From Bacteroidota bacterium (GTDB lineage Bacteria > Bacteroidota > Ignavibacteria > Palsa-1295), in contig JAJPIQ010000015.1 of NCBI GenBank assembly GCA_021324685.1, forward strand, positions 1-64,000: a DNA stretch of 64,000 nucleotides, given 5' to 3'. A model generated the notes under the pieces. That model made no database searches and was not told where the DNA came from. It worked only from the letters and a program-made list of their open reading frames with translations. Positions 7,835 through 46,012 of this stretch are shown here, one piece after another; within the stretch, counting starts at the first letter, position 1, and each line of letters opens with the position of its first letter. Made by a program: the position numbers and the translations under genes.

Positions 7835-9154
7835 TCATTTCAGGCTCTCTAACGCTCGACGCAGCCGGGGGAGCATGTCTTCGATATCCTGACTGGAGAC
7901 TGCGCCAATAGAAAGCCGGAACCAGCCGGTATTATCTTCCGAGCCGAAGGCCTGGAAAGGAACAATGGCCAGCCGCGCTTCTTCGAGCAGGTATTTTCGA
8001 ATATCCTCATTGGTCTCGAGAATTTTTCCCTTATGGGTCCTGCAGCCGGCGAGATCGAATTGCGCCGTGAGATAAATGGCTCCCATGGGGGAGATCGCAG
8101 CGGCTGGGAACCCCTCTTCGTGGAGGTCCTGAATTCCCTGATACAACAGATTGAGCCGTTCTTCGATGTTCGAAACCATCGTGGCGTGATAACCGTCGAT
8201 CGCATCGTCATCGAGCAGGAGCGCCGCGGTTGCGACTTGCTCCGCTCGCGGTGCCCAGGCGCCAATATGGCCCAAAATATTCGACATGCGGTGGGCAACG
8301 TCCGGCGCAGCGACGGCCCATCCTACGCGAACGCCGGTCGCGGCGAACGCCTTGCTGATCCCATCGACAAATATGGTATTCGGGGCAAGTTCGGGTCGGA
8401 GCGAGACCGGATTATGATGTACGGTATCGCCGAACGTGAGCATCCAATAGACCTGATCGTACATCATGAAAAGCGGGCGTTCGCCGGATCCGCGGCGGTC
8501 GTTTTCGTCGATAACGAGATCGCAAATTCCCTCGAGCGCTTCGCGGCTGAACGCCGTTCCGCTTGGATTGAGCGGCGAGCAGAGCGAAAGGAGTTTCGCA
8601 TCGCCCAGCGTGCCTCCCAGGACTTCACGGGTCGGAAGAAAGGCATCCTCGGCGCGGCAAATAACTCGTTCCCATGTCGCACGGCTCAAGTGGCAATAGT
8701 GATTGTTGTTCCAGGACGGAATCGGGTACACCACTTTGTCCCCTTCGTCTATCAAAACATTATAGGTGGCATAGATCGCAGGCCGAGCGCCGCTCGTAAT
8801 GATGAACGATTCGATCGGGTAATCGAGGCCGAGACGTCGTTCGTAAAAATTCTTGACTGCTTTTCGGAGCGAGAGCATTCCGTCGGACGGCGGGTAGTTC
8901 GTTTCGCCGGCATCGAGTGCAAGTTCGATCGACTTCCGAAGTTCGCGAGGAATAGGGAAGTACCTGGGGTCAAAGTCGCCAACGGTAAGATTGCAGATCG
9001 TATGACCTTCTGCGGTCATCGCTCGAATATCGGCGGCGATCTTCAGGATCTCGGAGCCCACCAGGCCCTGTGCCATGTGAGAAACTGCGGGTACGGACCG
9101 AATAGGAAATGCTGGCTTTGTTACAGTGTTGAGTTCTTCGACTTCGAGATTCAT
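7835..9154 (-). CDS. PLP-dependent aminotransferase, class I/II (aspartate aminotransferase-like)
   Basis: 439 residues from the ATG at 9154. A longer open frame to 9553 exists, but it runs through the neighbouring gene and encodes nothing recognisable. Fold-type I features are visible: 'LTVGDFDPRYFPIP' near the N-terminus, 'ITSGARPAIYATYNVL', the substrate/cofactor stretch 'SPLNPSGTAFS' (Asn196), 'YDQVY' (Asp233), the PLP-lysine in 'DGISKAFAATGVRVGW' (Lys268) and a C-terminal 'WFRLSIG' with the carboxylate-binding Arg. It lies 101 bases downstream of the amidase/ABC-transporter operon on the same strand, so it could be its last gene or a separate one. The amino donor and acceptor are not determinable. 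Confidence 0.88.
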   Translation of the reverse strand: MNLEVEELNTVTKPAFPIRSVPAVSHMAQGLVGSEILKIAADIRAMTAEGHTICNLTVGDFDPRYFPIPRELRKSIELALDAGETNYPPSDGMLSLRKAVKNFYERRLGLDYPIESFIITSGARPAIYATYNVLIDEGDKVVYPIPSWNNNHYCHLSRATWERVICRAEDAFLPTREVLGGTLGDAKLLSLCSPLNPSGTAFSREALEGICDLVIDENDRRGSGERPLFMMYDQVYWMLTFGDTVHHNPVSLRPELAPNTIFVDGISKAFAATGVRVGWAVAAPDVAHRMSNILGHIGAWAPRAEQVATAALLLDDDAIDGYHATMVSNIEERLNLLYQGIQDLHEEGFPAAAISPMGAIYLTAQFDLAGCRTHKGKILETNEDIRKYLLEEARLAIVPFQAFGSEDNTGWFRLSIGAVSSQDIEDMLPRLRRALESLK

Positions 9155-9255: not shown

Positions 9256-10458
9256 TTAACCGAGCGATGGATAGTAGTGTGCGAGTTCCAGAACGTTCGA
9301 GCCAGATGGCCAGGGATGACGCTCCCGGTCGTGGAGTAATGCATGGAGAAATCCGTGTGAGGGGTGAAAGAGTAGCCGGTGCAATGCTCGTTCCGTTCGG
9401 GAACTCGAATTCGATTTCATCGCGAATTCCGAATCCGGAAGTTGAAATAACGTGTGCATCTGAAAGGAAGTGCACCCTCGCCTTAAATATTCGAAAGCCA
9501 TGGCTCCGGTGACGATGTTCCCGGTCGCCGAGAGCGGAATCGTGTGCGGCCATTGCGACAGGACAGAAAGGTTCCTATCGCTGAGGTCCGGCCCGCCATA
9601 GGCGACACCCCGGACGCCCTCGTAACTTTTATTCGGATCGAACAGGCGGTTTCCATAAATGACATAGTCGGCCCGGCGCGGATGATGTTCGACGGCATTC
9701 AGCATTTCGAGTTGGAAATCGTCATGCTGGGCGGCATTGAAAATCTTAAGGCCAAGCCGAATGTCCTTGCCCACGCTGGTTTCCCGAATGAGGTCTGGCA
9801 CCGATCGAAGCCAGTTCAGGATCGTTTCCCGTTCTCGAGAAAATGATTCGTCTCCGGCGAGCGTCGGCGAAAAATCTTTTTCAAGCGGCATGCAACCCTC
9901 GCGAAGCGTATGCCACGTCCGGTATAACTCGGATGTCGTAAATTCGTATTCAGAACGGTTCCATTGCGTTTCTTCGGGTTTCGGAAGGTGGTACTTGACA
10001 GATGGAACGACCAGCATGGAGTGCGAGCCGGCACTCTCGATGGAGCGGCTGAAAAACTTTAAATAATCCGAAAAGCGTTCGCTCCATCCTCTGCCCTTCC
10101 AGGTCACGGTCCAGCCATGCTGGCCACGGACCGGTTCTCGAGTTCCCACGATCTCTTCGACCGTCATTTTTGTCGCAGGAATGGCCCAGGCTTTCATCGA
10201 CTGTGCGCCTGCCTCGTTCTCGGCAATGAGCGTTTTGAGCACCGCAAAACCCAAGCCCGCTTCGGCATCCCGTTGAACCTGATGCGCGTTAAGGGAGAGC
10301 TGTCCGGACGCTTTGCCGAACGGATTCTTAATCCGATGCCCTGCATATTCGCTTGCGAGCGAGATTCCATACGTTTCAAGAATATATGGTTCCAGCGGCC
10401 GGGGAAGGCCGCTCGAAAATCGTTCGTAATCGTTCAGAAGGCGGGTGTGCCAGTTCAT
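9256..10458 (-). CDS. Dihydroorotate-dehydrogenase-like FMN TIM-barrel oxidoreductase
   Basis: 400 residues from the ATG at 10458, which overlaps the stop of the upstream gene by 4 bases (ATGA); a longer frame to 10539 would intrude into that gene. The stretch 'IKNPFGKASGQLSLNAHQVQRD..GLGFAVLKT' resembles the first strands of class 1/2 DHODs ('NP.G.A.G' then 'G.GF.E.GT'). 'LGLKIFNAA' could provide the conserved Lys, 'GGPDLSDRNLSVL' resembles the DHOD 'G.SG' loop, and 'IPLSATGNIVTGAMAFEYLRRGCTSFQMHT' matches the phosphate-binding end of the barrel. The C-terminus is longer than usual. It is not in a pyrimidine context and probably oxidises or reduces an intermediate of the operon's pathway (inference). 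Confidence 0.7.
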   Translation of the reverse strand: MNWHTRLLNDYERFSSGLPRPLEPYILETYGISLASEYAGHRIKNPFGKASGQLSLNAHQVQRDAEAGLGFAVLKTLIAENEAGAQSMKAWAIPATKMTVEEIVGTREPVRGQHGWTVTWKGRGWSERFSDYLKFFSRSIESAGSHSMLVVPSVKYHLPKPEETQWNRSEYEFTTSELYRTWHTLREGCMPLEKDFSPTLAGDESFSRERETILNWLRSVPDLIRETSVGKDIRLGLKIFNAAQHDDFQLEMLNAVEHHPRRADYVIYGNRLFDPNKSYEGVRGVAYGGPDLSDRNLSVLSQWPHTIPLSATGNIVTGAMAFEYLRRGCTSFQMHTLFQLPDSEFAMKSNSSSRTERALHRLLFHPSHGFLHALLHDRERHPWPSGSNVLELAHYYPSLG

Positions 10459-11390
10459 CGGCGTTTCATGTCGGCCGGCAGTGCGTTCAAAAAATCGGCG
10501 ATTCGCTGAATTTCTTCGCGAGAAAGTTCCCGACCCCACGGATCATAAGTCGCTTCGGGAGAAACAATACCCAGCCAGGATAAGGCATAGAGCATGCGAG
10601 CAATATATCCTTCCATTGGCTGAGAAAAGGTTACCATTGAGAAACGGTCGATCAAGTCCGAATAATAAAAGAACGAGACCATGTCCTCCGCATACCAGGC
10701 TTTCAGAAGATCGACCTGGGGGGCAGTCAAAGCGGAGCCCATTCCGATGAGGCTGGCATCGGCGCCCATCATCAGCGAATATCCGAGGAACCGGTCTTCG
10801 CCCGTAATGAGGAGCATCTCAGGATATTCCGTTTTCATGTGGCGGGCAACGTCTTGAAATGTCATCACGCTATCGAGCGTGGCGATCTTCATACCGATCA
10901 CATTTGGTACAGCAAACAAACGGTCCAGGATTTCGGGGGAATACGAAATGCCGCCGGCTGCATCGTACAAATAAAATAAGATCAGAGGAAGCCCAGAGTT
11001 CGAAAGCTCCTCATGATAGGAAATAATTGCGGATGTTCGTTCTCGTTCCGGCCGGTTGCGGAGATGCGTCGGGGGATGGCAAAGAATGGCATCGGCGCCC
11101 AGCGATCTTGCCTGATCGGCCATTGCATGGGATCCGGCGCCTGCGATTATGACCGCATTTGGTAACGATTCTCTCCAATGCGTGAGGACTTCTGCCCGCT
11201 CAGGGCTCGTCATCAGCATTCCGCGTCCGGTGTGTGCCCATACCGCAATGCCGGCGAGTTGCAGGTCAGCCATATATTCGGCCATCCGAATATGGGACTC
11301 CCGATGAATCGTCCGCTCTGTGGTGAACGGCACGGGGAGTGCCGGGATTAAAGCGTGCCGTAGCCGATTTCGGATGTCATTCGACTTCAT
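10455..11390 (-). CDS. DapA/NanA-family (dihydrodipicolinate synthase-like) lyase or dehydratase
   Basis: 311 residues from the ATG at 11390, which forms an ATGA overlap with the upstream gene. The family's TIM-barrel order is visible: 'ALIPALPVPFT' at the N-terminus, the 'AHTGRG' loop where DapA has 'GTTGE', 'IIAGAGS', 'LPLILFYLYDAAGG' with a candidate catalytic Tyr140, and 'VIGMKIATLDS' with the Schiff-base Lys168. DapA-family enzymes cleave or form C-C bonds next to a 2-oxo acid, or dehydrate sugar acids, through a lysine Schiff base. The 'YLYDAAGG' loop differs from lysine-pathway DapA ('YN.P.RT'), so a catabolic aldolase/dehydratase is more likely than lysine biosynthesis. The exact reaction is unknown. 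Confidence 0.82.
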   Translation of the reverse strand: MKSNDIRNRLRHALIPALPVPFTTERTIHRESHIRMAEYMADLQLAGIAVWAHTGRGMLMTSPERAEVLTHWRESLPNAVIIAGAGSHAMADQARSLGADAILCHPPTHLRNRPERERTSAIISYHEELSNSGLPLILFYLYDAAGGISYSPEILDRLFAVPNVIGMKIATLDSVMTFQDVARHMKTEYPEMLLITGEDRFLGYSLMMGADASLIGMGSALTAPQVDLLKAWYAEDMVSFFYYSDLIDRFSMVTFSQPMEGYIARMLYALSWLGIVSPEATYDPWGRELSREEIQRIADFLNALPADMKRR

Positions 11391-12505
11391 CGCTGAAACT
11401 CTTTTCTGCTGAGGGTATAACGTTCTATTTTTTCCTCGCTCGCTCGGTAGCCCATCGGTGGTATCGCGATACACCCATCGGCTCCGATCGAGATTTGCGG
11501 TTCCACTATGTCGTCATGAAACCATCGAGTACTTGCTTCAATGTCGGTAGGATAAACGAATCCGGGCAAACTTGCAATTTCGAGTGCCTGCGCAGACGCA
11601 ATGCCGAGTTCCGGCATTGTCCCGAGCCACAGTGAAAGCCCTGCTTCTCGCGCGCGGCCTTCCATCAATTTTGCATTCCACAGGCCGCCTACCCGTTGAA
11701 CTTTAATATTAATAATTCCGGCCGCATTTAATCGAATGATTTCTTCGAGGGATTCCATCGAATCGGCGGATTCATCGAGGCAGATCGGCGTCCGGATGGA
11801 GCGCATCAGGTCTGCTGAATCTTCCAGCGCATCTGCTGCCAACGGTTGTTCTATCATCACCAGATTGAATCGGTCGAGTGCGCGGAGAATTTCCCTGTGT
11901 TCCGCAAGTTCGTATGAGGCATTGGCATCGACCATGAGGGGAATATCTCCGAAGCGTTTTCTCACGGCTGTGAGCGGTTCCAGATCCCATCCGGGAGCGA
12001 TTTTTATTTTTATACGCCGGTAACCATCCCTCAGGTAATGTTCGATTCGCTCCAGCAAAGCGTCCACCGTATCGAACATTCCCACCGCAAGGCCCGATGG
12101 GATGTTATGGTGGGGTATTCCTAACAGTTCGCGAATGGTCGTCCCGAGAAGTGAAGCGAAAAGGTCCCATACGGCACCCTCGATCCCGGCTCGAGCAAAA
12201 CATTCGTATTTAAAGCGGTTCAGTGAATCGGCATATTGGACAGGGTTGGCAATCGTGCGGGAAAAAATATCGGGAATGAGATCGTTCACAAGCGTATCCC
12301 ATGTGCTTTCGGGTGTCTCTTTGGAGTAAAACGATCCGGGCATCGGCGATGCTTCTCCGTAGCCGGAATGGCCGGCTGCCTGAACCTGAATCACGATACT
12401 TTCTTTTTCTGAAACGGTGCCATTCGAAATGCGGAACGGTTCCCGCATCGGAATCCGGACCCGGCGCAGGAGGATCCGCTCGACCGAAATTGCCGTTGCA
12501 CTCAT
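11387..12505 (-). CDS. Enolase-superfamily enzyme, o-succinylbenzoate synthase / N-acylamino acid racemase clade
   Basis: 372 residues. The muconate-lactonising-enzyme subgroup layout is complete: a capping domain (1-130), then the barrel with KIK (Lys166/Lys168), metal ligands Asp193 ('MVDANASY'), Glu219 ('MIEQPL') and Asp244 ('CLDES'), and Lys268 ('IINIKVQRVGGL'). The C-terminal 'ASLPGFVYPTDIEAS.RW' is typical of the MenC/NAAAR clade. Members either make o-succinylbenzoate for menaquinone or racemise N-succinyl/N-acyl/N-carbamoyl amino acids; many do both. No menaquinone gene is nearby, whereas a transporter and an amidase are, so a racemase-type role is favoured (inference). ATGA overlaps exist at both ends. 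Confidence 0.86.
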   Translation of the reverse strand: MSATAISVERILLRRVRIPMREPFRISNGTVSEKESIVIQVQAAGHSGYGEASPMPGSFYSKETPESTWDTLVNDLIPDIFSRTIANPVQYADSLNRFKYECFARAGIEGAVWDLFASLLGTTIRELLGIPHHNIPSGLAVGMFDTVDALLERIEHYLRDGYRRIKIKIAPGWDLEPLTAVRKRFGDIPLMVDANASYELAEHREILRALDRFNLVMIEQPLAADALEDSADLMRSIRTPICLDESADSMESLEEIIRLNAAGIINIKVQRVGGLWNAKLMEGRAREAGLSLWLGTMPELGIASAQALEIASLPGFVYPTDIEASTRWFHDDIVEPQISIGADGCIAIPPMGYRASEEKIERYTLSRKEFQR

Positions 12506-13332
12506 CCTTTCACTCCGGTTCGTAAAAAGGCGTCTGCGACGTGCCGTTGTGCGACCATATAGAATAGCACGATAGGGATAATGCTGAGGAGCGTTCCCGC
12601 CATCAAAAGATCGTAACGAAAATTATGTTGGACCGTCTGCAAAATTGCAAGCCCGAAGGAGAGCGGCATTTTTTCTTCGCTCGAAAGGAAGAGGACGGGA
12701 CTCAAAAGATCGTTCCAAATGCCCATAAACACGAACAGCGATAGTACGGCAAGTGCCGGTTTTGAGAGTGGCAGTAGCACCGTAGCGAAAAAACGGAATC
12801 GTCCCGCACCGTCGATTCGGGCGGCATCTTCCAGTTCTTTCGGCACCGACTCGAAGAATTGCCGTAGTAAAAAAACACCAAAGGCGCCGGTGGCAAATGC
12901 ACCGCCAAAAAAATGGGGAACGATCAAGGATGCTTGGTTATCGAGCCATCCCAGCCAACGGATGATGATGAATACCGGGACCATCGTCACCTGGAATGGG
13001 ATCATCATCGTCGAAAGAATAATGGAGAATAAAATCCCTTTGCCACGAAACTCCATGCGCGCAAAGGCAAAGGCGGCAAGCGCCGCCGCAGACACTTCGC
13101 CAAAGGTGCCTAACACGCTGATCTTGATGGAATTAAAAAAGAACGTGCCGATGGGCAACTCGCGGAAAATTGCGGCATAATTCGAAAAGTGCGGCGATCG
13201 AGGAACGAGGGACGGTGGGAACCGAACGAGCGATTGCGGCGACTCGAGGGAAGTTACAAGCATCCAGAAGAACGGTATCAGCATCAGTGCCGCAACGAGT
13301 CCCAGGGCGGTATATCGCAGAATGTTCTTCAT
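12502..13332 (-). CDS. ABC transporter permease, MalG/CUT1 type
   Basis: 276 residues from the ATG at 13332 (ATGA overlap with the upstream permease); an alternative start at 13347 would overlap more. Six hydrophobic segments are visible. The ATPase-contacting EAA loop 'ELEDAARIDGAGRFRFFATVLLPLSKPAL' lies in the expected position before the last segments. N-terminal 'PFFWMLVTSLESP' and C-terminal '.VQRHVADAFLRTGVKG' (here 'VAQRHVADAF') are hallmarks of the MalG-like partner in carbohydrate-type (CUT1) importers. It pairs with the frameshifted permease just upstream and with the lipoprotein receptor. No ATPase gene is present in the operon. Confidence 0.93.
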   Translation of the reverse strand: MKNILRYTALGLVAALMLIPFFWMLVTSLESPQSLVRFPPSLVPRSPHFSNYAAIFRELPIGTFFFNSIKISVLGTFGEVSAAALAAFAFARMEFRGKGILFSIILSTMMIPFQVTMVPVFIIIRWLGWLDNQASLIVPHFFGGAFATGAFGVFLLRQFFESVPKELEDAARIDGAGRFRFFATVLLPLSKPALAVLSLFVFMGIWNDLLSPVLFLSSEEKMPLSFGLAILQTVQHNFRYDLLMAGTLLSIIPIVLFYMVAQRHVADAFLRTGVKG

Positions 13333-14187
13333 GGCCGGAATACCCATCGGCGTCGAAGGAGGAATTGAAGCCCGGTGATGGTGAGTACGAGTACGAAGAA
13401 AATATATCCCAATGCACTGGCGCCACCCAAATTAAAAAAGCGAAACGCCATTTGCCAGATGTAGTAACTAAAGGTCAGCGTCGAAATCCCGGGTCCGCCA
13501 TTTGTCATGACAAATGTCTGCTCAAAGACCTGGAATGCACCGATAGTCGTTACCACCAGAACAAAGAACATCACCGGCGAAAGGAGCGGCAGCGTGATAT
13601 GCCGGAAGCGGTTCCAGGCGTTCGATCCATCCAGGCGTGCAGCCTCGTGATAATCCCTGGAAATGCTTGAAAGGCCGGCCAGAAAGATCATCATGTTATA
13701 CCCGGAATTTTTCCATACGCCCATGATCGATGGCCGGAAGCGCCCAATGAGGATCCTGCAGCCACTTCGGACCTGGGATATGAACGATGGACAACAGATA
13801 ATTAATGAGTCCGATATCGCTGTTATACATCCAGGACCATATAATCGCCGCCGCGACCATCGACGTGACAACGGGAAGGAAATAAACGGTGCGAAAGAAT
13901 GCAAGCCCGCGAATCTTTTTTTCTATGAGGAGTGCCAAAAGCAGGGACACGATGACGCTTGCTGGAACGTAAAGGAGGACATAATAACACGTGTTGGCAA
14001 AGACCTGCCAAAACAATTGCGAATGGAGCAACTCCGCATAATTGCGTGTGCCAATGAATTGAGGCGCGGTTCCCATCTCATAGTGGGTAAACGAAAGCCC
14101 GAACGAAGCAAGGATTGGCCCGACCGTAAAGACACAGAGCCCAATCAGGACCGGGGCAAGATACAGATAAGCGACGCGCGTTTTCAC
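13329..14187 (-). pseudogene. ABC transporter permease, MalF/CUT1 type, with a single-base frameshift
   Basis: Two overlapping frames together make one permease. The N-terminal part (GTG start at 14187, forming a GTGA overlap with the upstream gene) gives 'YLYLAPVLIGLCVFTVGPI' and further membrane segments up to 'HWALPAI', then runs out of frame to a stop at 13696. The C-terminal part continues in another frame from 'MGVWKNSGYNMMIFLAGL', through the EAA loop 'DYHEAARLDGSNAWNRFRHITLPLL', to the stop at 13329. The total length, 859 bases, is one base more than a 285-residue gene needs. The shift lies near 13725-13732. It is either a sequencing/assembly error, a real disruption, or programmed slippage; the perfect overlaps on both sides argue that the gene was recently intact. 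Confidence 0.85.
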
Positions 14188-15473
14188 GGAGTTTTGTTCC
14201 GGGCAAGGACTTCGTTAATGTTCGCGTCGATCGCGGCACAGCCCGCAGGAACGGAAATTCTACCGGCAAGCATGTCCTGCATGTTCGGCACAAATCCGTG
14301 ATCGCGCCACTCCTGCCAACCGGGTGTGATCAGGGTGAAAAGATGACCGTAGCTATTGATCGCAAGCAGCGCGCGCCGGTTGCATTTGGGAGTCCCATCA
14401 AGGAATTCGCTGGAATACGCAAGTGGCTTATAGAGCGGCATCGCGGAAAAAAAGAGGTCGTTGATTCCTTTTTTCGGCGGGAGTGTCACGATCCATTTGA
14501 TCAGTTCCCACGCGGAATCGGGATGCTGGCAGGAACTTGTAATTCCAAACGCCTGACCGTTTTGTCGATCGAGCAGTCCTGCGGAGCCACGGGGAGGAGC
14601 GGTCAGGTCCCATGAAAAGCTGGCGTGAGCAAGTTCCGTCTTGGCATAGTCGATATGCAGCATCATTGCGGCATGACCGAGCAAAAACTGCTGGCCCAGC
14701 GTTTGCGATGGATCTGGGGGAGGAGCGACATGTTCCTTCTCCACCAGATTGACGTAAGATTGCACCGCCGCTACGGTAGCGGGTTCCATCATCGCGCTTT
14801 TTGTCTTATCGTCGGACAGAATTTTACCGCCATTGGAATAAATATACGTATCGATTCCAGTAAATCCGCCGTCATCGAGGAGAATACCCCAAACTTTGGA
14901 TTGTGGATCGGTGGCGTTATTGGTCAGTGTACGAGCAGCATTCAAAAAGTCTGCGTAGGTCCAGGTCGAATCCGGATATTTCAACCCTGCTTTATCGAAA
15001 AGGTCCTTGTTATAAAAAAGCGCGGTGACTCCGCCGGATGCGGGCATGGCCATGAGCGGGCCTGTAGGAACATTGCCTTTTCGCCAGACCGTAAAAAATT
15101 GTGTAAAGAAATCGCTGTCGCGGAGGTCGCGGCGAAAGAACGAATCGAGCGGAATTGTGTAATTGTGCTTGAAGAGGTCCTGTCCGAACCAATCGTCGAT
15201 AAGGACCACATCTCCAATTGTACTTCCACTGACGGCCGCCGATTCGATTTTCGTAGTGTATAGTCCGAAGGGAATGGCCTCGACTTCCACTTCGATGTTC
15301 GGATGCGCTTTTGTAAACGGATCGATCACATCGCGCTGCCACGTATCTTTCTGGTCAAGATAAAAATGGACAAGTTTAAGGTGGACTTTCCCTGAATTCG
15401 CTCCTTCTTCATGGCCGCAGCCCGACAACAAAGACCAACAGAGAATCGCGATACAACACACAATTAATTTCAT
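14184..15473 (-). CDS. Extracellular solute-binding lipoprotein of a CUT1-type ABC importer
   Basis: 429 residues. The N-terminus is a lipoprotein signal with lipobox LSGC (Cys19), so the mature protein is anchored to a membrane facing the periplasm. The body fits SBP family 1: 'VHLKLVHFYLDQ', 'DVIDPFTKAHPNIEVEVEAIPF', 'GDVVLIDDWF', 'ALFYNKDLFDKAGLKYPDSTWTYADFLNAARTLT' and 'HPDSAWELIKW' are all family signatures. It captures the transported compound and delivers it to the two permeases encoded downstream. CUT1 receptors usually bind oligosaccharides, polyols or glycerol-phosphate-like ligands. The associated enzymes here do not look like glycosidases, so the ligand is open. The start overlaps the amidase stop by 4 bases. 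Confidence 0.93.
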   Translation of the reverse strand: MKLIVCCIAILCWSLLSGCGHEEGANSGKVHLKLVHFYLDQKDTWQRDVIDPFTKAHPNIEVEVEAIPFGLYTTKIESAAVSGSTIGDVVLIDDWFGQDLFKHNYTIPLDSFFRRDLRDSDFFTQFFTVWRKGNVPTGPLMAMPASGGVTALFYNKDLFDKAGLKYPDSTWTYADFLNAARTLTNNATDPQSKVWGILLDDGGFTGIDTYIYSNGGKILSDDKTKSAMMEPATVAAVQSYVNLVEKEHVAPPPDPSQTLGQQFLLGHAAMMLHIDYAKTELAHASFSWDLTAPPRGSAGLLDRQNGQAFGITSSCQHPDSAWELIKWIVTLPPKKGINDLFFSAMPLYKPLAYSSEFLDGTPKCNRRALLAINSYGHLFTLITPGWQEWRDHGFVPNMQDMLAGRISVPAGCAAIDANINEVLARNKTP

Positions 15474-16345
15474 AACGTATCGTAATATCGTTTTTGTTGT
15501 CTCGCAATTTCCGAGTATTGTTTTGCGTACAAATCCATTCTTGTTAGTGCTTCAAGATCCGGACGGGTATCGTCCGGGTCGTGAATGAGAACAACATTCG
15601 ATGTTTGTCTCCGCTCGTCAAGATCGATGTCGTAGATGGCAAGGCCCTCTCGCCGGCCAGTTTGGGACACAATATCGCCATTGAAGTCGATAATGCGGGC
15701 AGTGCCGGGATAAAACCGCCCGGCATACGGCGCATAGGGTGGATGGCCGGCTAAATTCGATTCGACCACATACAGTGAATGATCGATCGCACGCGACCGT
15801 ATTTGCGCTTCGAGACCGCTTTGCGTTGGTCCGTGAGTGGTTGTTGGCCAGAACAGGATTTCTGTTCCGTTCATGGCATAAATGCGAGCGATCTCGGGGA
15901 AATAAAGGTCCAGGCAAATCATAATCCCGATTTTGGCAAATCCGAGATCGAGAATAGGGAACTCGCAACCCGGGCTAACCCACCGGGCTTCGGAACCGGT
16001 CGGCTGGAGTTTGCGGTAAAAGCCGATTTCCTCTCCGGCTGAATCATAAACCGTCGCCTGGTTAAAAACTTTGTCTTCGGTTCGCGTAAAAAACGGGGCA
16101 ATCACGGCGATCGAAAATTCCCGAGCACAATGAGAAAAAAAACGTGCCCACTCGCTCGAATTTTGAACTTCCTCTTCCGGGTTTGGGACGTTGTTCGTCG
16201 TTACGGTCTCCGGTAGGCAGACAATATCTGCGGAGTTCCGGGCCGCGTCTTCGATATATTTCTTAGCGCGATGGAGGTTGAAGTCCACCGAATGCGGAGA
16301 ATCCTCCATCAGAAAGGAAACGGTGGCGGTCCGAATTTTGCGCAT
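15470..16345 (-). CDS. Carbon-nitrogen hydrolase (nitrilase superfamily amidase)
   Basis: 291 residues, near the usual family length. The catalytic triad is in place: Glu46 ('CLPET'), Lys112 ('FYRKLQPT') and Cys144 ('IMICLDLYFPE'), with a second conserved Glu151. No signal peptide is seen, so it is cytosolic. The superfamily hydrolyses amides, N-carbamoyl groups or nitriles; N-carbamoyl-amino-acid, beta-ureidopropionate and N-carbamoylputrescine hydrolases have this fold. It is the first gene of the operon and overlaps the receptor gene by 4 bases (ATGA). The 87-base gap to the divergent egtD must hold the operon's promoter, though no clear consensus is visible. Confidence 0.9.
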   Translation of the reverse strand: MRKIRTATVSFLMEDSPHSVDFNLHRAKKYIEDAARNSADIVCLPETVTTNNVPNPEEEVQNSSEWARFFSHCAREFSIAVIAPFFTRTEDKVFNQATVYDSAGEEIGFYRKLQPTGSEARWVSPGCEFPILDLGFAKIGIMICLDLYFPEIARIYAMNGTEILFWPTTTHGPTQSGLEAQIRSRAIDHSLYVVESNLAGHPPYAPYAGRFYPGTARIIDFNGDIVSQTGRREGLAIYDIDLDERRQTSNVVLIHDPDDTRPDLEALTRMDLYAKQYSEIARQQKRYYDTL

Positions 16346-16432: not shown

Positions 16433-17398
16433 ATGCAGTCTACACTAAGTTCCAAGGACAAAACCGTAACGAACGATTCCTTCAAGACGGAAATCATAGC
16501 CGGCTTCTTCACATCGCCGAAGCGGATTACGAGCAAGTTCTTTTATGACGAACTCGGCTCGAGCCTTTTCGAAAAAATTACGACGCTGCCAGAATATTAT
16601 CTCACTCGTACAGAGATTTCTATTTTCGAACGATTTCTCCCTGAGATGGCTGCGGCCATTGGGCCGAAGGCAACCGTCGTCGAGTTTGGCTCTGGCTCCG
16701 GAACGAAAACACGAATGCTGCTCGGCCATCTTCTACACCCCCGTTCCTATATCCCGATCGATATTTCACGCGAAACGCTCCATCGGTCTGCAATGGAGCT
16801 CTCCATTCAATTCCCGCAGATAGAAATCTGCCCGATCCATGCCGATTATACGGAGGAGATTCGTCTCCCGGGCCTTCGAGCTGCCGACGGGCGAACGCTC
16901 ATTTTTTTCCCGGGTTCGACCATTGGGAATTTTACGCCGCCGGAAGCCGAGTCATTCCTTCGGCGGGCCGCTTCTCTGGTAGGGCCACGCGGTGCGCTGC
17001 TGATTGGGTTCGATCGAAGGAAAGATCCGCGTATTCTCGAAGCCGCGTATAACGATTCCGAAGGGGTTACCGCGGCGTTCAATCTCAATCTTATACGCCG
17101 CATTGACGATGCATTCGGAATTCACATTCCCGCCGAGAATTTCAAACATTATGCATTTTTCAATGAAGCGAAGAGCCGGATCGAAATGCACCTGGTGAGC
17201 CTCGAAGACCAACGCTTCTCCCTCGACGGCAATGAAATCTTCTTCTCGAAGGACGAGCACGTCGTTACGGAATATTCCTATAAATACACGTCGGAATCGT
17301 TCCAAATGCTTCTCAAAGCCGGTGGATTCGAAGTCGAGCGCCGATGGACCGATCCAAAGGACTATTTTGAGGTCTGTTATGCGACGCTGGCGGATTAA
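16433..17398 (+). CDS. egtD: L-histidine N-alpha-methyltransferase (ergothioneine biosynthesis, EgtD)
   Basis: 321 residues, the normal EgtD length. The diagnostic N-terminal stretch 'FFYDELGSSLFEKITTLPEYYLTRTE' is present, followed by the SAM-binding 'VVEFGSGSGTKTRML', 'YIPIDIS' and 'FFPGSTIGNFTP'. EgtD trimethylates histidine to hercynine with three SAM molecules, the first step of ergothioneine synthesis; the sulfur-inserting partner EgtB is not in this window. The gene is divergent from the amidase operon and convergent with guaB. No obvious Shine-Dalgarno precedes the ATG. Confidence 0.93.
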   Translation: MQSTLSSKDKTVTNDSFKTEIIAGFFTSPKRITSKFFYDELGSSLFEKITTLPEYYLTRTEISIFERFLPEMAAAIGPKATVVEFGSGSGTKTRMLLGHLLHPRSYIPIDISRETLHRSAMELSIQFPQIEICPIHADYTEEIRLPGLRAADGRTLIFFPGSTIGNFTPPEAESFLRRAASLVGPRGALLIGFDRRKDPRILEAAYNDSEGVTAAFNLNLIRRIDDAFGIHIPAENFKHYAFFNEAKSRIEMHLVSLEDQRFSLDGNEIFFSKDEHVVTEYSYKYTSESFQMLLKAGGFEVERRWTDPKDYFEVCYATLAD

Positions 17399-39355: not shown

Positions 39356-40545
39356 GAGCGAAGAGCCTCCTCCACTATCGATGCAGGTGCGGCAGAACGC
39401 GTCGTTTGGGGCCAAATGGGTTCCTGCCGGGACAGCATGAATTCGAATACTCCGCGCATGAACGCAACATTCATGCTGAAAAACCAATACAAACTGCTTG
39501 CAAATGGAATCGGTTGACGTGCGTTTCGAAACAACCATCCCATGAAAACCAGAACGGTTGCAAGTCCTTCGAGGATCAATAGGGACCACGCCCACGCGAG
39601 ATGCCCATAAAAGTCGAATTGGGTTCCAATGACGACCCCCAACGCGAGAAATCCTGTGAGCCACCGCAATATTTTATGCGGCCATAACATCCATGCGGCG
39701 GATCCATGAAATAAAGGTTGGGGAAGTATTCGTAGTGTATAAAGGCAGCGTGAAGCATTCCTTTTTTTACGAGCGCCTTCTTCGCGATAATTCCTTGCAT
39801 ATTGTTCGGTGGAGATTGCACCTTCCTCGTAGAGCAATCGATGGCCGCTTTCGATAATCGTTAATACCGAAAAGAAATCGTCATAGACGCGGTCATTCGG
39901 TAAGGGCTTCCATAGGGCTCGCCGCATAGAATAGTTACCGCCGTATAGACCGACGGTCGATCCGATTTCGGCTTCATTGCGCCGAAGGTTGCTTTCGAAC
40001 GAGAGGAACGTAGATTCCGAACGATAAACACCGTCCGTGCGGTCGCTGGCAATAGTCAACCTTCCCGCGACCCCACCGACGGTTGCATCGATATAATGGC
40101 GAACGTGGGAAAGTATCGCATTCGGATTGAGCGTGACGTCGGCATCGACAAACAATAAAATCTCGTTTTTGGCATGGGTAACAAGATCGTTCAGCGTGAG
40201 CATCTTGCCGCGTTGCGGGAAAAAGTAAAAAGGTCGAAGGAAAGAATGCCGTTCCGATAGTTCCCTTAAGATCGAGTTCGTCATATCCGTCGAGCCATCG
40301 GACCCGCAAAGGATTTCAAGTTTTTCACGAGGATAATTCAAATGAACCAGCGATTCGATACACCGTCTAAGCACGAGTTCTTCATTGAACGCCGGAAGGA
40401 TGATGGAGACCGTCGGGCGATATGTTTCGTCAATATGCCATTTTCGAGGACGCAGCCGGGCACGCAGGGCAACCAACAAGGGAAATCCTACGTAAGAATA
40501 TAGGAGGAGCAAGGCGCAAATTGCTGCGAAGTAGATCATTCCCAA
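39352..40545 (-). CDS. Membrane GT2 glycosyltransferase
   Basis: 397 residues (two codons fewer if the ATG at 40539 is used). One N-terminal membrane segment is followed by a GT2 catalytic domain: 'VSIILPAFNEELVLRRCIESL', 'ILCGSDGSTDMTNSI', 'ILLFVDADVTLNPNAI', 'LYGGNYSMRRALW' and 'DDFFSVLTIIESGHRLLYEEGAISTEQ'. Three or four C-terminal membrane segments follow. This topology resembles processive membrane synthases, but the QxxRW motif of cellulose/hyaluronan synthases is not seen; 'GARKKRNASRCLYTL' occupies that place. It probably elongates the lipid-linked repeat. Confidence 0.88.
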   Translation of the reverse strand: MGMIYFAAICALLLLYSYVGFPLLVALRARLRPRKWHIDETYRPTVSIILPAFNEELVLRRCIESLVHLNYPREKLEILCGSDGSTDMTNSILRELSERHSFLRPFYFFPQRGKMLTLNDLVTHAKNEILLFVDADVTLNPNAILSHVRHYIDATVGGVAGRLTIASDRTDGVYRSESTFLSFESNLRRNEAEIGSTVGLYGGNYSMRRALWKPLPNDRVYDDFFSVLTIIESGHRLLYEEGAISTEQYARNYREEGARKKRNASRCLYTLRILPQPLFHGSAAWMLWPHKILRWLTGFLALGVVIGTQFDFYGHLAWAWSLLILEGLATVLVFMGWLFRNARQPIPFASSLYWFFSMNVAFMRGVFEFMLSRQEPIWPQTTRSAAPASIVEEALRS

Positions 40546-41778
40546 TCAAATCGAAGGTGTGCGAGACGCTTCCCGGTTGAAGGAAAGGATCGAGGTATAT
40601 AACTTGCTAAAATCTTCTCCAATTTTTTTCCAGTTATATTTTTGCATGACAAGTTCACGTGCTGTGCGGCCAAATTGAGCTCGTAATTCTGCGTTAGAAA
40701 GAAGTTCTACGGTCGCATTGGCAAAAGCCAATGGATCGTCAGCGAGGAGCAATTGCTGCGCATTTTTCGCCAAATTGCCCTCTACTCCTATCGAAGTAGA
40801 AACCACTGCTTTTCCTGCAGCAAAGAAATCGAGCAATTTAAGCCGCATTCCGCCACCAATGCGGAGTGGTACCACAAGAACGGCGGAACGAGCTAAATAG
40901 TCGCGGACGTCAGGCACTCTGCCAAGCAACCGTACATTCGCTCCAAAAGTCGATGCCTGTCTTTGAAGACGGGATGCGTCCGTTCCTATAATATCAAATT
41001 TTGCAGTCGAACGCTTCTTTAGGATAAGCGGGAAGATCGAGGTTAGGAAGTATCGAATAGCATCGAAATTTGGGTCCCAGGCGAGGCTTCCAATCCAAAG
41101 AATTTGATCTGGATCCTCTGGTGCCTCACTCGGATGAAAATAATCGGTATCAACGCCTGCGGGAATGACTTCGATTTTTGCTGCCGGCGCGACATGCCTT
41201 ATAATGTCTGCATCTTCGTTTGTGATCGCTGCAATGGCATCAAAGGCATTCAAATATTTACTTTCTTGTCGCTTCAATCGGCGGCCGTGAATGGTTGCAA
41301 TCAGGCGTTTAAAAAGATTTCGTTCCGTTTTTGCAAAACGCTCGTAAATCAGCGCTTCGAAATTATGCTCCCGAAGTAAAATGGGAAGATGATGTTTCGC
41401 TTTGAGCCAAAGACCGTATTCCCCCATATGAGCGTGATCGACGTGCACAACGTCGAATCTGGTGCTCTCGACGATTCGCTCTAAAAGAGCGTACATTTCC
41501 GGCATCATTCGTCGCTCGATCGGATACGCCCCGCGAAACATCGTTCGAAATAAGACTCGCCACCGCGCCGGCAGTGGTTTCGAGACTATTTCGACCCTGG
41601 CATATTTCGAAAGGGCTGTGAGTCCTTCCTTTGTCTCTTCTGGATAATCGAGAGGGTACGTTACCAACGTGATCTCATGTCCTAATTCTGCGAGTGATTT
41701 GGTAATATTAAAAATGCCGATTGCACCGCCGTCGGTCAACGGCCAGGGCATACGTGGTGTGAGTTGCAGGATTTTCAA
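40546..41778 (-). CDS. GT4-family glycosyltransferase
   Basis: 410 residues starting at a TTG at 41778, chosen because it forms a TTGA overlap with the upstream stop and begins exactly at the conserved first strand 'KILQLTPRMPWPLTDGGAIGIFNITKSLAELGHEITLVTY'; an ATG at 41832 would overlap the neighbour by 58 bases. The GT-B layout is visible, with the C-terminal nucleotide-sugar domain 'IEVIPAGVDTDYFHP', 'ILWIGSLAWDPNFDAIRYFL', 'FDIIGTDASRLQRQA', 'VRLLGRVPDVRDYLARSAVLVVPLRIGGGMRLKLLDFFAAGKAVVST'. It adds a sugar to the growing repeat unit in the cytoplasm. Confidence 0.93.
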   Translation of the reverse strand: MKILQLTPRMPWPLTDGGAIGIFNITKSLAELGHEITLVTYPLDYPEETKEGLTALSKYARVEIVSKPLPARWRVLFRTMFRGAYPIERRMMPEMYALLERIVESTRFDVVHVDHAHMGEYGLWLKAKHHLPILLREHNFEALIYERFAKTERNLFKRLIATIHGRRLKRQESKYLNAFDAIAAITNEDADIIRHVAPAAKIEVIPAGVDTDYFHPSEAPEDPDQILWIGSLAWDPNFDAIRYFLTSIFPLILKKRSTAKFDIIGTDASRLQRQASTFGANVRLLGRVPDVRDYLARSAVLVVPLRIGGGMRLKLLDFFAAGKAVVSTSIGVEGNLAKNAQQLLLADDPLAFANATVELLSNAELRAQFGRTARELVMQKYNWKKIGEDFSKLYTSILSFNREASRTPSI

Positions 41779-42749
41779 GCCCAACGGAAGAGAAAAAAAT
41801 AAAAACGCCGAAGTTCGATGACCTGCCTCCAAGTTAATTTAGGGCGGGCATTTAAAAAATATCCAATATCTTTAAGACCATCTTTTAATCCACGCAAGTT
41901 CGCACGCCACGTCCCTTTATGCATGAGCAACGCTATTACGCGACGAGAGATAAGTATCATGATAAGAATTGGTAATGCTAAAAGCGGCCAATGTTTTGCA
42001 ATTAACCAAATCATATGGCGAGAATTCATATAAGCTCTTCGATCGGAAGGTCGCATATTCGAAGAGAAAAAGTGTAAAGTAAGAAATTCCGGACAGAGGC
42101 AAATTTTTAGACCGTTTTTAAAAAATTGCAAACCTAAGTCTATTCCTTCAGATCCATAAGTCCATTTTTCATCATATCCTTGAACCTTTTTAAGAGAATC
42201 TAATCGGAAACAGGAACCTCCTTCTACTACAAAAATCCCTTCGAAGGCATGTTCAGATTTTTTTCTTAAGCGATAGTTATTCCATCCTTCGGTCTCAGTA
42301 ATTCCTGTTAAAGGTTGATAGCATGACATACTAATTGCATCAATTTCTGAATGAGACTCCAAATATTTCACAACTCGAAAAATTGTGGCAGGCGTTGCAG
42401 GATTAGAATCATTATCAAAATGAAACACGTACTTCCCTTTTGCTAATCGCGTGACGATATTTCTTGAGGATACCCCATTATTTTGTTGCACTTCATACGA
42501 TAGAACATTTGGAAATTCATGCGCCAGCATCTGGATACTTCCATCTGTCGAGCCATTGTCAATCACGATAATTTCGATTGATGGATATCGGATTCCGCGA
42601 GTGATGACGTCCAGTGTCTGCCGTAAATCGTCGCATCGGTTATAATTCAGAATGCCAATCGTAATCAGCGGCAGCGTAGGATCCTTTAGGTCGGCATCTG
42701 CTATCGACCAATGTCTCGCATCCCATACGGTACTCATGGTTTGCTTCAC
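41775..42749 (-). CDS. GT2-family glycosyltransferase, AT-rich gene
   Basis: 324 residues. The GT2 core is 'LPLITIGILNYNRCDDLRQTLDVI', 'IIVIDNGSTDGSIQML', 'GKYVFHFDNDSNPATPATI' and 'GGSCFRLDSLKKVQGYDE'. The C-terminus has a hydrophobic stretch ('LLALPILIMILISRRVIALL') and basic residues, suggesting membrane association. Base composition drops noticeably here: the 60 bases from 42061 contain 20 G/C, against about half in flanking core genes, a sign of a foreign origin. ATGA overlap with the upstream flippase gene; TTGA overlap with the downstream GT4 gene. Confidence 0.9.
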   Translation of the reverse strand: MKQTMSTVWDARHWSIADADLKDPTLPLITIGILNYNRCDDLRQTLDVITRGIRYPSIEIIVIDNGSTDGSIQMLAHEFPNVLSYEVQQNNGVSSRNIVTRLAKGKYVFHFDNDSNPATPATIFRVVKYLESHSEIDAISMSCYQPLTGITETEGWNNYRLRKKSEHAFEGIFVVEGGSCFRLDSLKKVQGYDEKWTYGSEGIDLGLQFFKNGLKICLCPEFLTLHFFSSNMRPSDRRAYMNSRHMIWLIAKHWPLLALPILIMILISRRVIALLMHKGTWRANLRGLKDGLKDIGYFLNARPKLTWRQVIELRRFYFFLFRWA

Positions 42750-44323
42750 AGGTTTCCGACTCTAAACCGAGCCAGCATGTCTCGCACGTCTGCAATGGAA
42801 AGGACCTTTAGAAAATGAATCGCCATGAGGAACAAACCGAGAAGCAAGCCCGCATTTAACCACTCTGCGATTGCGATTCGAGAAAGAAAATGAGCGATCA
42901 TTATGACTGCCGTCGCAGAAATAAATATTTTAAAACATAATTCCCTGAACTTCGGCGCATTGAAAAAATCGGCTTTCCAGATCAGAGAGAGAAATAACAA
43001 TGTTCCAAGGCTTACGGCGATTAATTTGGAGGTCATGGCCCCCGCGGCGCCATACGCAGGAATCAGCAGAATATCGCCCAGGATTACTGATAGCATGATG
43101 AACGCCGTATAAACGGTAAACGGCCACGATTTCCCTGCAGCGATCGTCATCTCCGATAAAAAAGACGAAATGAATACTGGGATCAGCATCCATCCTATAT
43201 ACTGAAGCAAGTATCCGGAAGCTGCATATTTACTGCCAAGAAATAGTTTCACCATCATGGTCGATGCGGGAAGCAAAACGATCGCAATCGCCACGGCGGC
43301 AGTGAGAAGAAAACGTAACGCTAATTCCGTTAACCGTTTCGATTTCACGCTATCGTGTTTTCGCAGTAAGCGGGTTACTTCGGGTGCGGCAACATACGCC
43401 AGAACCATTGGGATGGGAATGACGGCTGCCATAAGCCGGACGATCGCTCCGTAACTCGCAACTTCGTTCGGAGTGCTCAAGCGATCTAACAAGAGTTTAT
43501 CGATCTCTGTGTGAATTGTAAGAAATGCAATGGCAGCACTCAGCGGTATCGCACCCCTGAGCAGCGATTTTATCGTCTCAAAAGAGATGTGAAGTCGGAT
43601 GCCCTCACTGCGACACCATTTTACAATAGCCACCGTGAGCAACAGAAAACCTGGGATATTCGAAAGCGCATAGATCAAAAGGACCGCCGGGACAGTCAAA
43701 TGTCCCAGTGTGGCAAGGAGGAGGGCCGTTGCGAAGGCAATCGCGTCTGCCAATGCAAATCCGGCGACCAGATAAAATTTTCCAATGCTTTTCAGGACCG
43801 ATTCACCAACAGCGCGGACAATGAGCAACCGGGAAGAAATGAAGAGTGTTACCAGCACGATCTCCATATTCGTTACCATGCTGGCCGGATATAATGCGGG
43901 AGCGATCAAAAGGACAAGTATAACAACAAAAATAGAAAGGCATACGCGAACGAGCAAGGCGCTACCGAACAACGTTCCCCTACGATCGCGATGACCATCC
44001 AGCGCATCCTGCTCCGCTTCTGCGAACATCCGCGTAAAAAGCGAATTCATCCCTAAGTCAGCTACGAGACTCATCATGGCCACAAAACTGATGGATACCG
44101 TGAACTGCGCGTATTCAACACGCGAAAGAACGCGCGGTATAATCAGTTGGCCGATAAAGAGAAAAAGATTCGTTAAAATGTTGAGGAGCAGCCCTCCGGC
44201 AGCACCCCGGACAAGGCGAGAGCCAAGGGCGGGTTCCAGTCGTATTGTCGCGGAAGTGGTATCAGTCATCTGTGGCAGGAGAGCACTTAATGTCAATTCC
44301 TGGGAGGAAGTTTCGAACCGCAT
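42746..44323 (-). CDS. Polysaccharide flippase, Wzx/MATE-like (MOP superfamily)
   Basis: 525 residues (507 if the ATG at 44269, before 'TDTTSATIRLEP', is the start). About fourteen hydrophobic segments span the protein, beginning 'GGLLLNILTNLFLFIGQLIIPRVLSRVEYAQF', which is typical of O-antigen/polysaccharide flippases. It would move the undecaprenyl-linked repeat unit across the inner membrane. Its start lies close to the divergent gene at 44375, so the intervening 51 to 105 bases must carry both promoters. It is the first gene of a long leftward run. Confidence 0.92.
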   Translation of the reverse strand: MRFETSSQELTLSALLPQMTDTTSATIRLEPALGSRLVRGAAGGLLLNILTNLFLFIGQLIIPRVLSRVEYAQFTVSISFVAMMSLVADLGMNSLFTRMFAEAEQDALDGHRDRRGTLFGSALLVRVCLSIFVVILVLLIAPALYPASMVTNMEIVLVTLFISSRLLIVRAVGESVLKSIGKFYLVAGFALADAIAFATALLLATLGHLTVPAVLLIYALSNIPGFLLLTVAIVKWCRSEGIRLHISFETIKSLLRGAIPLSAAIAFLTIHTEIDKLLLDRLSTPNEVASYGAIVRLMAAVIPIPMVLAYVAAPEVTRLLRKHDSVKSKRLTELALRFLLTAAVAIAIVLLPASTMMVKLFLGSKYAASGYLLQYIGWMLIPVFISSFLSEMTIAAGKSWPFTVYTAFIMLSVILGDILLIPAYGAAGAMTSKLIAVSLGTLLFLSLIWKADFFNAPKFRELCFKIFISATAVIMIAHFLSRIAIAEWLNAGLLLGLFLMAIHFLKVLSIADVRDMLARFRVGNL

Positions 44324-44374
44324 TTATTTTTCTCTGGAACGAAGCACCAGTTTCCTACGTAACGCCTTTTTCCG

Positions 44375-45967
44375 ATGACAGAGCAACGACGGAATCGCCG
44401 GTTTTCTTTCGATATCTTTCTTTTTGCCACCCTTGCGATCTCACTCGCGTTGTTTGTACTGGTCGCGATTGAACCGATTGGAGCCGATAATGCCGTCCTG
44501 CATTCAATGGCACTGGATCTCACTCGATACGGTAGAATTCCCTACCTCGGAACGTGGGACAATAATTTTCCTGGGATTATTTTCCTGCATGGCATTGGAA
44601 TTTTGCTTTTCGGAGAGTCAAATCTCGGCTTTCGGATCTTCGACATCGTCATTCAACTTGCCTTTATTGTTTTCCTTTATTATTTCTTATTGCGATGGCT
44701 CCGGCCGCATAGCGCTGCATTGGCTTCAGTGCTGTATGCGGCATATTACGTAAGCGGAAGTACATATCTCTATGGTCAGCAGGATGGTTATGGAATGATG
44801 TTGGTCCTGATCGGAGCCTCGTTTCTGGTCGGTATTGATCGTTCCAAAAAGTTTTGGCTAAGAATTGGGGCTGCCGGATTTATTTCCGGGATCTCAGTCC
44901 TTATGCGACCAACCTTTCTACTTTACCTGGCACTTCTTGGTTTTTATTTATTATGGGACGAGAACGGAAAACTTAAGATGAAGTGCGTTTTGCACTCGGT
45001 TTTTCTGATTCTCTCGGGGTTGGCTCCCATCGCCCTTCTTCTACTTTTTTATGCCGAAATTCCGAATGGACTCGAAGCATTTTATACGTCCACGATACGG
45101 TTTAATTTAGATCTTTACACTAAGCTTACAGGGGGAAGTTTTGGGATAGAAATATATCGCTCCGGGCTTATGATTCCTTTGGCGGTTGCCGGCGTGGCCT
45201 TGAAAGGGCAATATGATGACGATATTTTCAGCCGGGTTCCCCATAAAAAAGACCTGCTTCTTTTCCTGAGTTTTATTGTCACTGGACTTCTCGTTGCTGT
45301 CCTCATGGGGAAATTCTGGCGTTACCAGTTTGCCCCATTCTATATCGTACTTATACCGTTCTCAGCGGTGGGAATCGAGCGAGTTATACGCAGGACGAAG
45401 GACGAGTTAAAACAACATTTTGCAATGCTGGCGTGCGTTCTATTCTCGACCTTCATTGGATATAACCCGATCGCGCCGGTCGCGTTTTCGCTCGGATTGC
45501 TGAAACATATCGATCCCTTTGAAGCTGCAGATGAAGCGCGCCGTCGGAATCCACTTTCAGGAGCGAAACCAGAACATGCGTTGGTCGATTTTTTGAACCG
45601 TCCACAAAATCGTTCGGCTACAATTTCATTCGCTGGCTTCGATCCGTATCTGCGTCTCGACCTTGCACGACCATTCGTCGGCCGCTTTTTTAATTATCAT
45701 GCGATTGCGTTTCGGACCGATCGGACGAACGTTGGAATTCCACATTACACGGAATACCAGCGGGAGTGGCAGCAAGTGTATCTTCACAACCTTGAAACCG
45801 TGGAGCCTCGGTTTATTATCCTTGGCCGGCACCAGCCGTTTTGGTACATTCGAGATGTCTACGACGATTGCCTTCACTTCATCCCCGGCTTCGATCACTT
45901 TTTCCAATCGAATTATCGATACGATACGAGTTTCGGAGGATTTCAAGTGTATTCATTTACCAAATAA
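44375..45967 (+). CDS. GT-C-like multi-pass membrane protein (putative glycosyltransferase)
   Basis: 530 residues with an N-terminal membrane segment, a first loop 'GADNAVLHSMALDLTRYGRIPYLGTWDNNFPGIIFLHGIG', about ten further membrane segments and a C-terminal soluble domain of about 150 residues ('RSATISFAGFDPYLRL', 'WQQVYLHNLETVEPRFIILG'). The first-loop acidic residue, the 'NFPGIIFLH' motif and the layout resemble GT-C enzymes. It is a paralogue of the next gene on the same strand, both inverted relative to the surrounding polysaccharide genes. Confidence 0.75.
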   Translation: MTEQRRNRRFSFDIFLFATLAISLALFVLVAIEPIGADNAVLHSMALDLTRYGRIPYLGTWDNNFPGIIFLHGIGILLFGESNLGFRIFDIVIQLAFIVFLYYFLLRWLRPHSAALASVLYAAYYVSGSTYLYGQQDGYGMMLVLIGASFLVGIDRSKKFWLRIGAAGFISGISVLMRPTFLLYLALLGFYLLWDENGKLKMKCVLHSVFLILSGLAPIALLLLFYAEIPNGLEAFYTSTIRFNLDLYTKLTGGSFGIEIYRSGLMIPLAVAGVALKGQYDDDIFSRVPHKKDLLLFLSFIVTGLLVAVLMGKFWRYQFAPFYIVLIPFSAVGIERVIRRTKDELKQHFAMLACVLFSTFIGYNPIAPVAFSLGLLKHIDPFEAADEARRRNPLSGAKPEHALVDFLNRPQNRSATISFAGFDPYLRLDLARPFVGRFFNYHAIAFRTDRTNVGIPHYTEYQREWQQVYLHNLETVEPRFIILGRHQPFWYIRDVYDDCLHFIPGFDHFFQSNYRYDTSFGGFQVYSFTK

Positions 45968-46012
45968 AAAGTAAAGCGAAGGTTTTTTAAATTAAATCAT
46001 TGATTATTAAAA

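Follow-up and report, generated by a model that had tools for sequence, protein, structure and literature searches.

A seven-gene operon of an Ignavibacteria genome with a candidate role in the uptake and breakdown of an amide compound

In this study, a seven-gene operon was analyzed in a stretch of DNA from a Bacteroidota bacterium (Ignavibacteria; Palsa-1295; assembly GCA_021324685.1, a draft genome of 89 contigs; contig JAJPIQ010000015.1), the whole 64,000 nt of which are referred to as the window. The operon is tentatively read as importing and catabolizing an amide (N-acyl) compound with a probable sugar-derived part, and a probability of roughly 0.45 is given to this reading. Its parts had been described in a sequence-only reading as an importer, an amide hydrolase, an N-acylamino-acid-type racemase (RAC), a Schiff-base aldolase-family protein (DAP) and a flavoprotein of the DHOD superfamily (DHOD), and this description is supported. 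All of the parts come from known superfamilies; as had also been claimed, their combination matches no named pathway found in the curated models or open literature searched, nor does the DAP–DHOD pair, and the core is conserved over several phyla.

In the proposed pathway, a CUT1-type ABC importer, consisting of a solute-binding protein (SBP) and two permeases and probably energized by a shared UgpC/MsiK-type ATPase, would take up a small compound with a bond of the amide or N-acyl type and, probably, a component derived from sugar. The amide would be hydrolyzed in the cytosol by the amidase NIT, and RAC, to judge from its family, may invert the α-carbon of the N-acylamino-acid moiety through a two-lysine 1,1-proton transfer. 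DAP might carry out a Schiff-base lyase or dehydratase step on a 2-oxo acid from the released skeleton, and DHOD a C=C or CH–CH redox step that depends on flavin mononucleotide (FMN). A Gfo/Idh oxidoreductase and an FG-GAP propeller protein would act in the same pathway, as is suggested by their co-occurrence with the operon. The sugar-derived part of the substrate is proposed because of the importer type and the Gfo/Idh and lyase partners. The earlier functional reading holds for amide hydrolysis, which recurs with the module (nitrilase, M20), and its N-acyl part is still presumptive; the sugar side was underrated in it, given the CUT1-type importer, the recurring Gfo/Idh genes and a heparinase II/III-like lyase in the Paenibacillus cluster.

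The operon and its enzymes

The seven genes all lie on the minus strand, spanning positions 16345 down to 9256 in the open reading frames of the window. They are listed with a neighboring gene and the six junctions.

15470..16345, minus strand: NIT, nitrilase-fold carbon-nitrogen hydrolase (amidase); PF00795, 135 bits
14184..15473, minus strand: SBP, lipoprotein solute-binding protein, SBP_bac_1 (carbohydrate/CUT1 type); PF01547, 98.7 bits
13329..14187, minus strand: permease A, MalF/UgpA type, frameshifted near 13730; alignment with intact relatives
12502..13332, minus strand: permease B, MalG/UgpE type; PF00528, 67 bits; UgpE, 120 bits
11387..12505, minus strand: RAC, putative NSAR/OSBS-subfamily racemase, enolase superfamily; TIGR01928, 259.6 bits
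10455..11390, minus strand: DAP, putative DapA/NanA-superfamily Schiff-base protein (K168) with an HTGRG motif; PF00701, 59 bits; AlphaFold/Foldseek
9256..10458, minus strand: DHOD, predicted divergent DHOD/DPD-superfamily FMN-type TIM barrel; AlphaFold/Foldseek; profile match to DPD
7835..9154, minus strand: class I/II aminotransferase, a neighbor judged to lie outside the system; copies in genomes without the operon
15470-15473: junction NIT/SBP, ATGA overlap
14184-14187: junction SBP/permease A, GTGA overlap
13329-13332: junction permease A/permease B, ATGA overlap
12502-12505: junction permease B/RAC, ATGA overlap
11387-11390: junction RAC/DAP, ATGA overlap
10455-10458: junction DAP/DHOD, ATGA overlap

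RAC is assigned by its sequence to the NSAR/OSBS (MenC low-GC/NAAAR) subfamily. It scores above the curated TIGR01928 cut-off (259.6 versus 200.65 bits) and matches NSAR/NAAAR enzymes of the PDB with E values of about 1e-66. The catalytic lysines K166/K168 (KxK) and K268 and the metal ligands D193, E219 and D244 align with those of PDB NSAR enzymes and are invariant in ten homologues, in agreement with the earlier naming of a MenC/NAAAR-like racemase. R271, the counterpart of the arginine near Lys263 that is mutated in 7s8w, is also kept. The eighth-strand motif is GTMPE, compared with GGMIE in the Amycolatopsis enzyme, and details of the substrate may therefore differ from those of the latter. 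NSAR enzymes work through a lysine pair (PMC8142540), and amidase/NSAR tandems act on many N-substituted amino acids, including N-acyl, N-carbamoyl and N-succinyl forms (PMC7431475). A housekeeping role as the OSBS of menaquinone synthesis is unlikely because no MenD scores above the cut-off in the window genome.

The amidase NIT reaches 135 bits against PF00795 (cut-off 23.2), and its Glu-Lys-Cys triad motifs (LPET, YRK and IC(L/M)D) are invariant in six orthologues, which share 67-70% identity and are confined to the operon-bearing genomes of the genus. It falls below every named equivalog cut-off; the best NCBIfam model is TIGR03381 (N-carbamoylputrescine amidase), with 99 bits against a cut-off of 410.

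DAP is a divergent Schiff-base aldolase-family protein. Its AlphaFold model (pLDDT 94.5) is a TIM barrel that Foldseek matches to NanA (E 1e-17) and also to DapA, and K168, aligned with the Schiff-base lysine of DapA/NanA, is invariant. In 23 of 23 members, the TGE motif of the superfamily, located in the pyruvate-binding loop, is replaced by TGR (HTGRG). The catalytic tyrosine (Y133 in DapA, Y137 in NanA) aligns with either F139 or Y140 according to where the gap is put, and Y140 is a histidine in locus L014. The scores lie below the equivalog cut-offs of both dapA (47.6 versus 206 bits) and nanA (36 versus 382 bits).

The model of DHOD suggests a rare FMN-type TIM barrel, the nearest relative of which is dihydropyrimidine dehydrogenase (DPD). 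The protein scores below the gathering threshold of Pfam DHO_dh (PF01180; 22.7 versus 27 bits), and a single-sequence search gave no close solved relative. With the AlphaFold model (pLDDT 90.8), the top Foldseek match was the FMN domain of DPD (E 7e-14, TMq 0.56), followed by DHODH. Furthermore, the family profile aligns an NPFG motif (NPFGKASG) and a C-terminal phosphate-binding ATG-I motif (ATGNI) with DPD.

SBP and both permeases are of carbohydrate type according to Pfam and NCBIfam models and solved relatives, and the closest solved relative of SBP is an arabino-oligosaccharide-binding protein (E 4e-28). SBP and permease B are intact, permease A is frameshifted and the ATPase is encoded elsewhere: the operon contains no ATP-binding subunit, and one UgpC/MsiK-type ATPase above the family cut-off is encoded elsewhere in all seven genomes of the genus, among them the operon-free G004. 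This fits a presumed shared ATPase. In two species of the genus, one unbroken frame of ~1,160 codons covers both the SBP lipoprotein and a RecQ-like helicase (L072 8273-11770 in G002; L073 10307-13771 in G001); either the two are fused or a stop codon has been lost and SBP starts internally.

The window coordinates bear out the 4-base overlap claimed for all six junctions (five ATGA and one GTGA). The gene order is kept in the related loci L010, L012 and L011, but the spacing varies: in L010, three junctions overlap by 4 bases and one by a single base, and another has a gap of 0; two junctions of L012 are separated by 3 and 4 bases; and the gaps in L011 are larger. The run of six overlaps thus marks a tight operon in the lineage of the window, and the pattern itself is not conserved. 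Promoter-like and terminator-like matches at the operon showed no excess over shuffled sequence. Further along the window, at 40001-50000, the GC content falls to 0.41-0.49 from about 0.53, possibly marking acquired DNA.

The claim of seven coupled genes stands for the gene set and overlaps; it had overlooked that permease A is split into two frames (13696-14187 for the front part and 13329-13904 for the remainder). Alignment with three relatives, in which the gene is intact at 861 bp, indicates a net 2-base deletion near 13730. Since relatives carry the gene intact, the frameshift is taken from these alignments to be an assembly error or a recent lesion, which cannot be told apart in a draft of 89 contigs. 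Decay or misassembly of the whole operon in the window genome, with its genes forming a chance cluster, would account for this frameshift and for the loss of the system from G004; such an explanation is highly improbable, as five other species of the genus keep the same order with intact genes and the remaining six genes of the window are open and well conserved.

Spread of the DAP–DHOD pair and its partners

A scan for DHOD in 84,980 species genomes, which detects close relatives only and thus gives a lower bound, returned 31 loci. The hosts are Bacteroidota/Ignavibacteriae metagenome-assembled genomes (MAGs), Acidobacteria, an Abditibacteriales MAG, Poribacteria, Planctomycetes, Symbiobacteria, Clostridia/Bacillota and about ten Paenibacillus. 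DAP adjoins DHOD in 25 of the 31 loci, some of the others being cut by contig ends, and it is single-copy in 12 of the 16 DHOD genomes tested. The pair as such occurs in Kapabacteria-type Bacteroidota, Acidobacteria, Planctomycetes, Clostridia, Symbiobacteria and Paenibacillus. The distribution is sparse: within the class of the window, DHOD is restricted to the genus, with matches in seven of 100 genomes, of which one is weak and at chance level, and a survey of the phylum of L014 for further contexts gave a strong match in only two of 297 genomes. A more speculative proposal is that DAP and DHOD constitute a catabolic module of two enzymes not described before, combining a TGR-loop Schiff-base protein with a new DPD-like flavoprotein family; this module might have spread between phyla as the center of a route for amide-linked compounds that contain sugar.

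RAC is linked to the pair in four lineages, namely Kapabacteria-type Bacteroidota, Acidobacteria, Clostridia and Symbiobacteria, and it is present but unlinked, at >460 bits, in genomes G102, G103 and G105. The Symbiobacteria locus contains Gfo/Idh genes, an RpiR regulator and DAP-DHOD-RAC. The Paenibacillus cluster comprises genes for a heparinase II/III-like lyase, an SBP, two permeases, Gfo/Idh, AP_endonuc_2, a regulator, M20 (in most but not all cases), DHOD and DAP, together with a second DapA-family gene and an SDR epimerase. Gfo/Idh genes are linked to the pair in Paenibacillus, Symbiobacteria and Poribacteria loci, and the neighbor of RAC or DHOD is an M20 amidohydrolase in Clostridia and in the majority of Paenibacillus loci. 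The nitrilase in the window, M20 elsewhere and the recurrent Gfo/Idh genes thus identify unrelated amide hydrolases and Gfo/Idh enzymes as recurring partners.

Two side observations concern these loci. In one Paenibacillus locus (L129 6472-8082), the α and β subunits of L-serine ammonia-lyase are encoded upstream of the heparinase-like gene, which would fit the release of serine from an amide. In G103 (L082 7044-9168), a second NSAR-like racemase lies beside an M20-like gene; downstream on the other strand are a DHOD-like (PreA-looking) gene and a nitrilase-like gene, resembling ordinary pyrimidine catabolism.

The same partners could also be read as the catabolism of sugar acids or of acids derived from glycans, with no turnover of N-acyl compounds, in which a sugar or cyclitol derivative is oxidized by Gfo/Idh, DAP cleaves a 2-keto-3-deoxy acid, DHOD adjusts the redox state, NIT removes an ordinary amide and RAC catalyzes another MLE-subgroup reaction (epimerization or syn-elimination). 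The SBP near an arabino-oligosaccharide binder, the lyase, Gfo/Idh and AP_endonuc_2 genes in Paenibacillus, and a DAP fold nearest NanA and DapA are all consistent with this route, as are the AP_endonuc_2 and 2-hydroxyacid dehydrogenase genes that adjoin RAC in L076; in addition, the oxidation of glycosides at C3 by Gfo/Idh enzymes is documented (PMC11239390). However, RAC is clearly of the NSAR/OSBS type with both catalytic lysines and does not fall among the sugar-acid dehydratases, and the module is repeatedly accompanied by amide hydrolases of two unrelated families, making this route somewhat unlikely.

Salvage of D-amino acids, with N-acyl-D-amino acids being racemized by RAC and deacylated much as in the NSAR/M20 route of Geobacillus, and with DAP and DHOD degrading the amino-acid skeleton, is distinctly less credible. 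It has a precedent in the DgcN-DgcA route for D-glutamate (PMC10845958) and would suit the compact DAP-DHOD-RAC-M20 operon of Clostridia, the M55 D-aminopeptidase near the module in L016 and the Acidobacteria locus (RAC-DAP-DHOD-GNAT with MFS), where GNAT adjoins DHOD. Against it, RAC is far below the cut-off of the DgcA model (139 versus 400 bits), relatives of the GNAT in 399 Bacilli genomes had no NSAR or M20 neighbor among the best 30 loci, and the sugar-type importer and Gfo/Idh partners are left unexplained. A GNAT/NSAR/M20 link of the Geobacillus type was rejected on similar grounds, as the operon of the window has no GNAT and the Bacilli relatives of the Acidobacteria GNAT do not lie beside NSAR or M20.

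Several results weigh against the import and catabolism of an N-acyl compound proposed here. Four of the 16 DHOD genomes lack DAP, RAC is absent from the Paenibacillus genomes G104 and G106, and several DAP–DHOD loci have neither RAC nor M20; given these RAC and M20 gaps, the core function may lie elsewhere than in the turnover of N-acylamino acids. No confirmation was obtained for a GNAT link of the Sakai type. Furthermore, the importer could be dead in the window genome owing to the frameshift in permease A.

Genes that co-vary with the operon

Within the genus, orthologues of NIT, Gfo/Idh and the FG-GAP protein follow the operon exactly: they are present in the six genomes that carry it and not in G004 (62-70% identity for NIT and Gfo/Idh), and those of Gfo/Idh and FG-GAP are also absent from G007 and G008. 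In G001 and G002, the amidase gene lies outside the operon beside the FG-GAP propeller gene, and in G001 also beside the Gfo/Idh gene. The amidase gene of G003 is preceded by that of the FG-GAP protein and by one with a weak likeness to glycoside hydrolases. The Gfo/Idh and FG-GAP genes of the window genome share a 4-base overlap and lie on a separate contig (C87). The FG-GAP/β-propeller protein (L142 9150-11897; 915 amino acids) bears a weak likeness to the propeller domains of λ-carrageenase and rhamnogalacturonan lyase. From this co-occurrence, the two proteins probably belong to the same pathway, which would thus exceed the seven genes of the operon. An EgtB-like gene, recognized by sequence reading (L142 7879-9153 on C87), flanks the pair.

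In the tree of the neighboring aminotransferase, G004 falls inside the genus with G000, G005 and G006 (98/97), and the operon-bearing G003 and G001/G002 branch outside. The aminotransferase and an EgtD-like gene are ~330 bases apart in G004 with nothing between them, forming an empty site. Since G004 is nested in the genus, the simplest reading is joint loss at two or three unlinked places; the co-variation involves few genomes, and the contamination of G004 is 7%. An EgtD-like gene (16433-17398, by sequence reading) likewise flanks the operon in the window.

The aminotransferase itself, which begins 101 bases past DHOD and had been tied to the system, was rejected as a member of the pathway: it is 85% identical in the operon-free G004 and about 50-63% identical in several genera without DHOD.

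Comparison with known systems

Taken together, the operon points to an uncharacterized catabolic route common to unrelated soil and sediment bacteria, and the existence of cultured carriers in Paenibacillus, together with the linked genes and those that co-vary without linkage, makes its substrate directly testable. Its logic resembles that of the diaminopimelate/lysine branch (DapA, DapB, DapE, DapF), with an aldolase, a reductase, an N-acyl step, an M20 deacylase and an epimerase; however, the reductase and epimerase come from other families, an importer is present and the score of DAP is well under that required by the dapA model. Reductive pyrimidine catabolism (PreTA/DPD, dihydropyrimidinase and β-ureidopropionase) shares the DPD-like flavoprotein fold and a nitrilase-fold amidohydrolase, whereas the operon has no hydantoinase or PreT, its DHOD is very divergent, and a racemase and an aldolase are additional. 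A Schiff-base protein of the NanA superfamily and an importer are also found in sialic acid catabolism (NanA and partners), but DAP has HTGRG in place of TGE, the operon lacks NanE and NanK, and the racemase, flavoprotein and amidase are foreign to the sialic route. Glycoside pathways with Gfo/Idh and xylose-isomerase-like (AP_endonuc_2) proteins, such as DgpABC, share both gene types with the Paenibacillus cluster, whereas no AP_endonuc_2 gene was seen in the operon of the window and the core is DAP–DHOD. In the NSAR/M20 desuccinylase tandems of Geobacillus and other NSAR–amidohydrolase systems, an N-acylamino-acid-type racemase is likewise encoded with an amide hydrolase; compared with these, the operon adds a carbohydrate-type importer and enzymes of the DapA and DHOD families, and in the window a nitrilase takes the place of M20.

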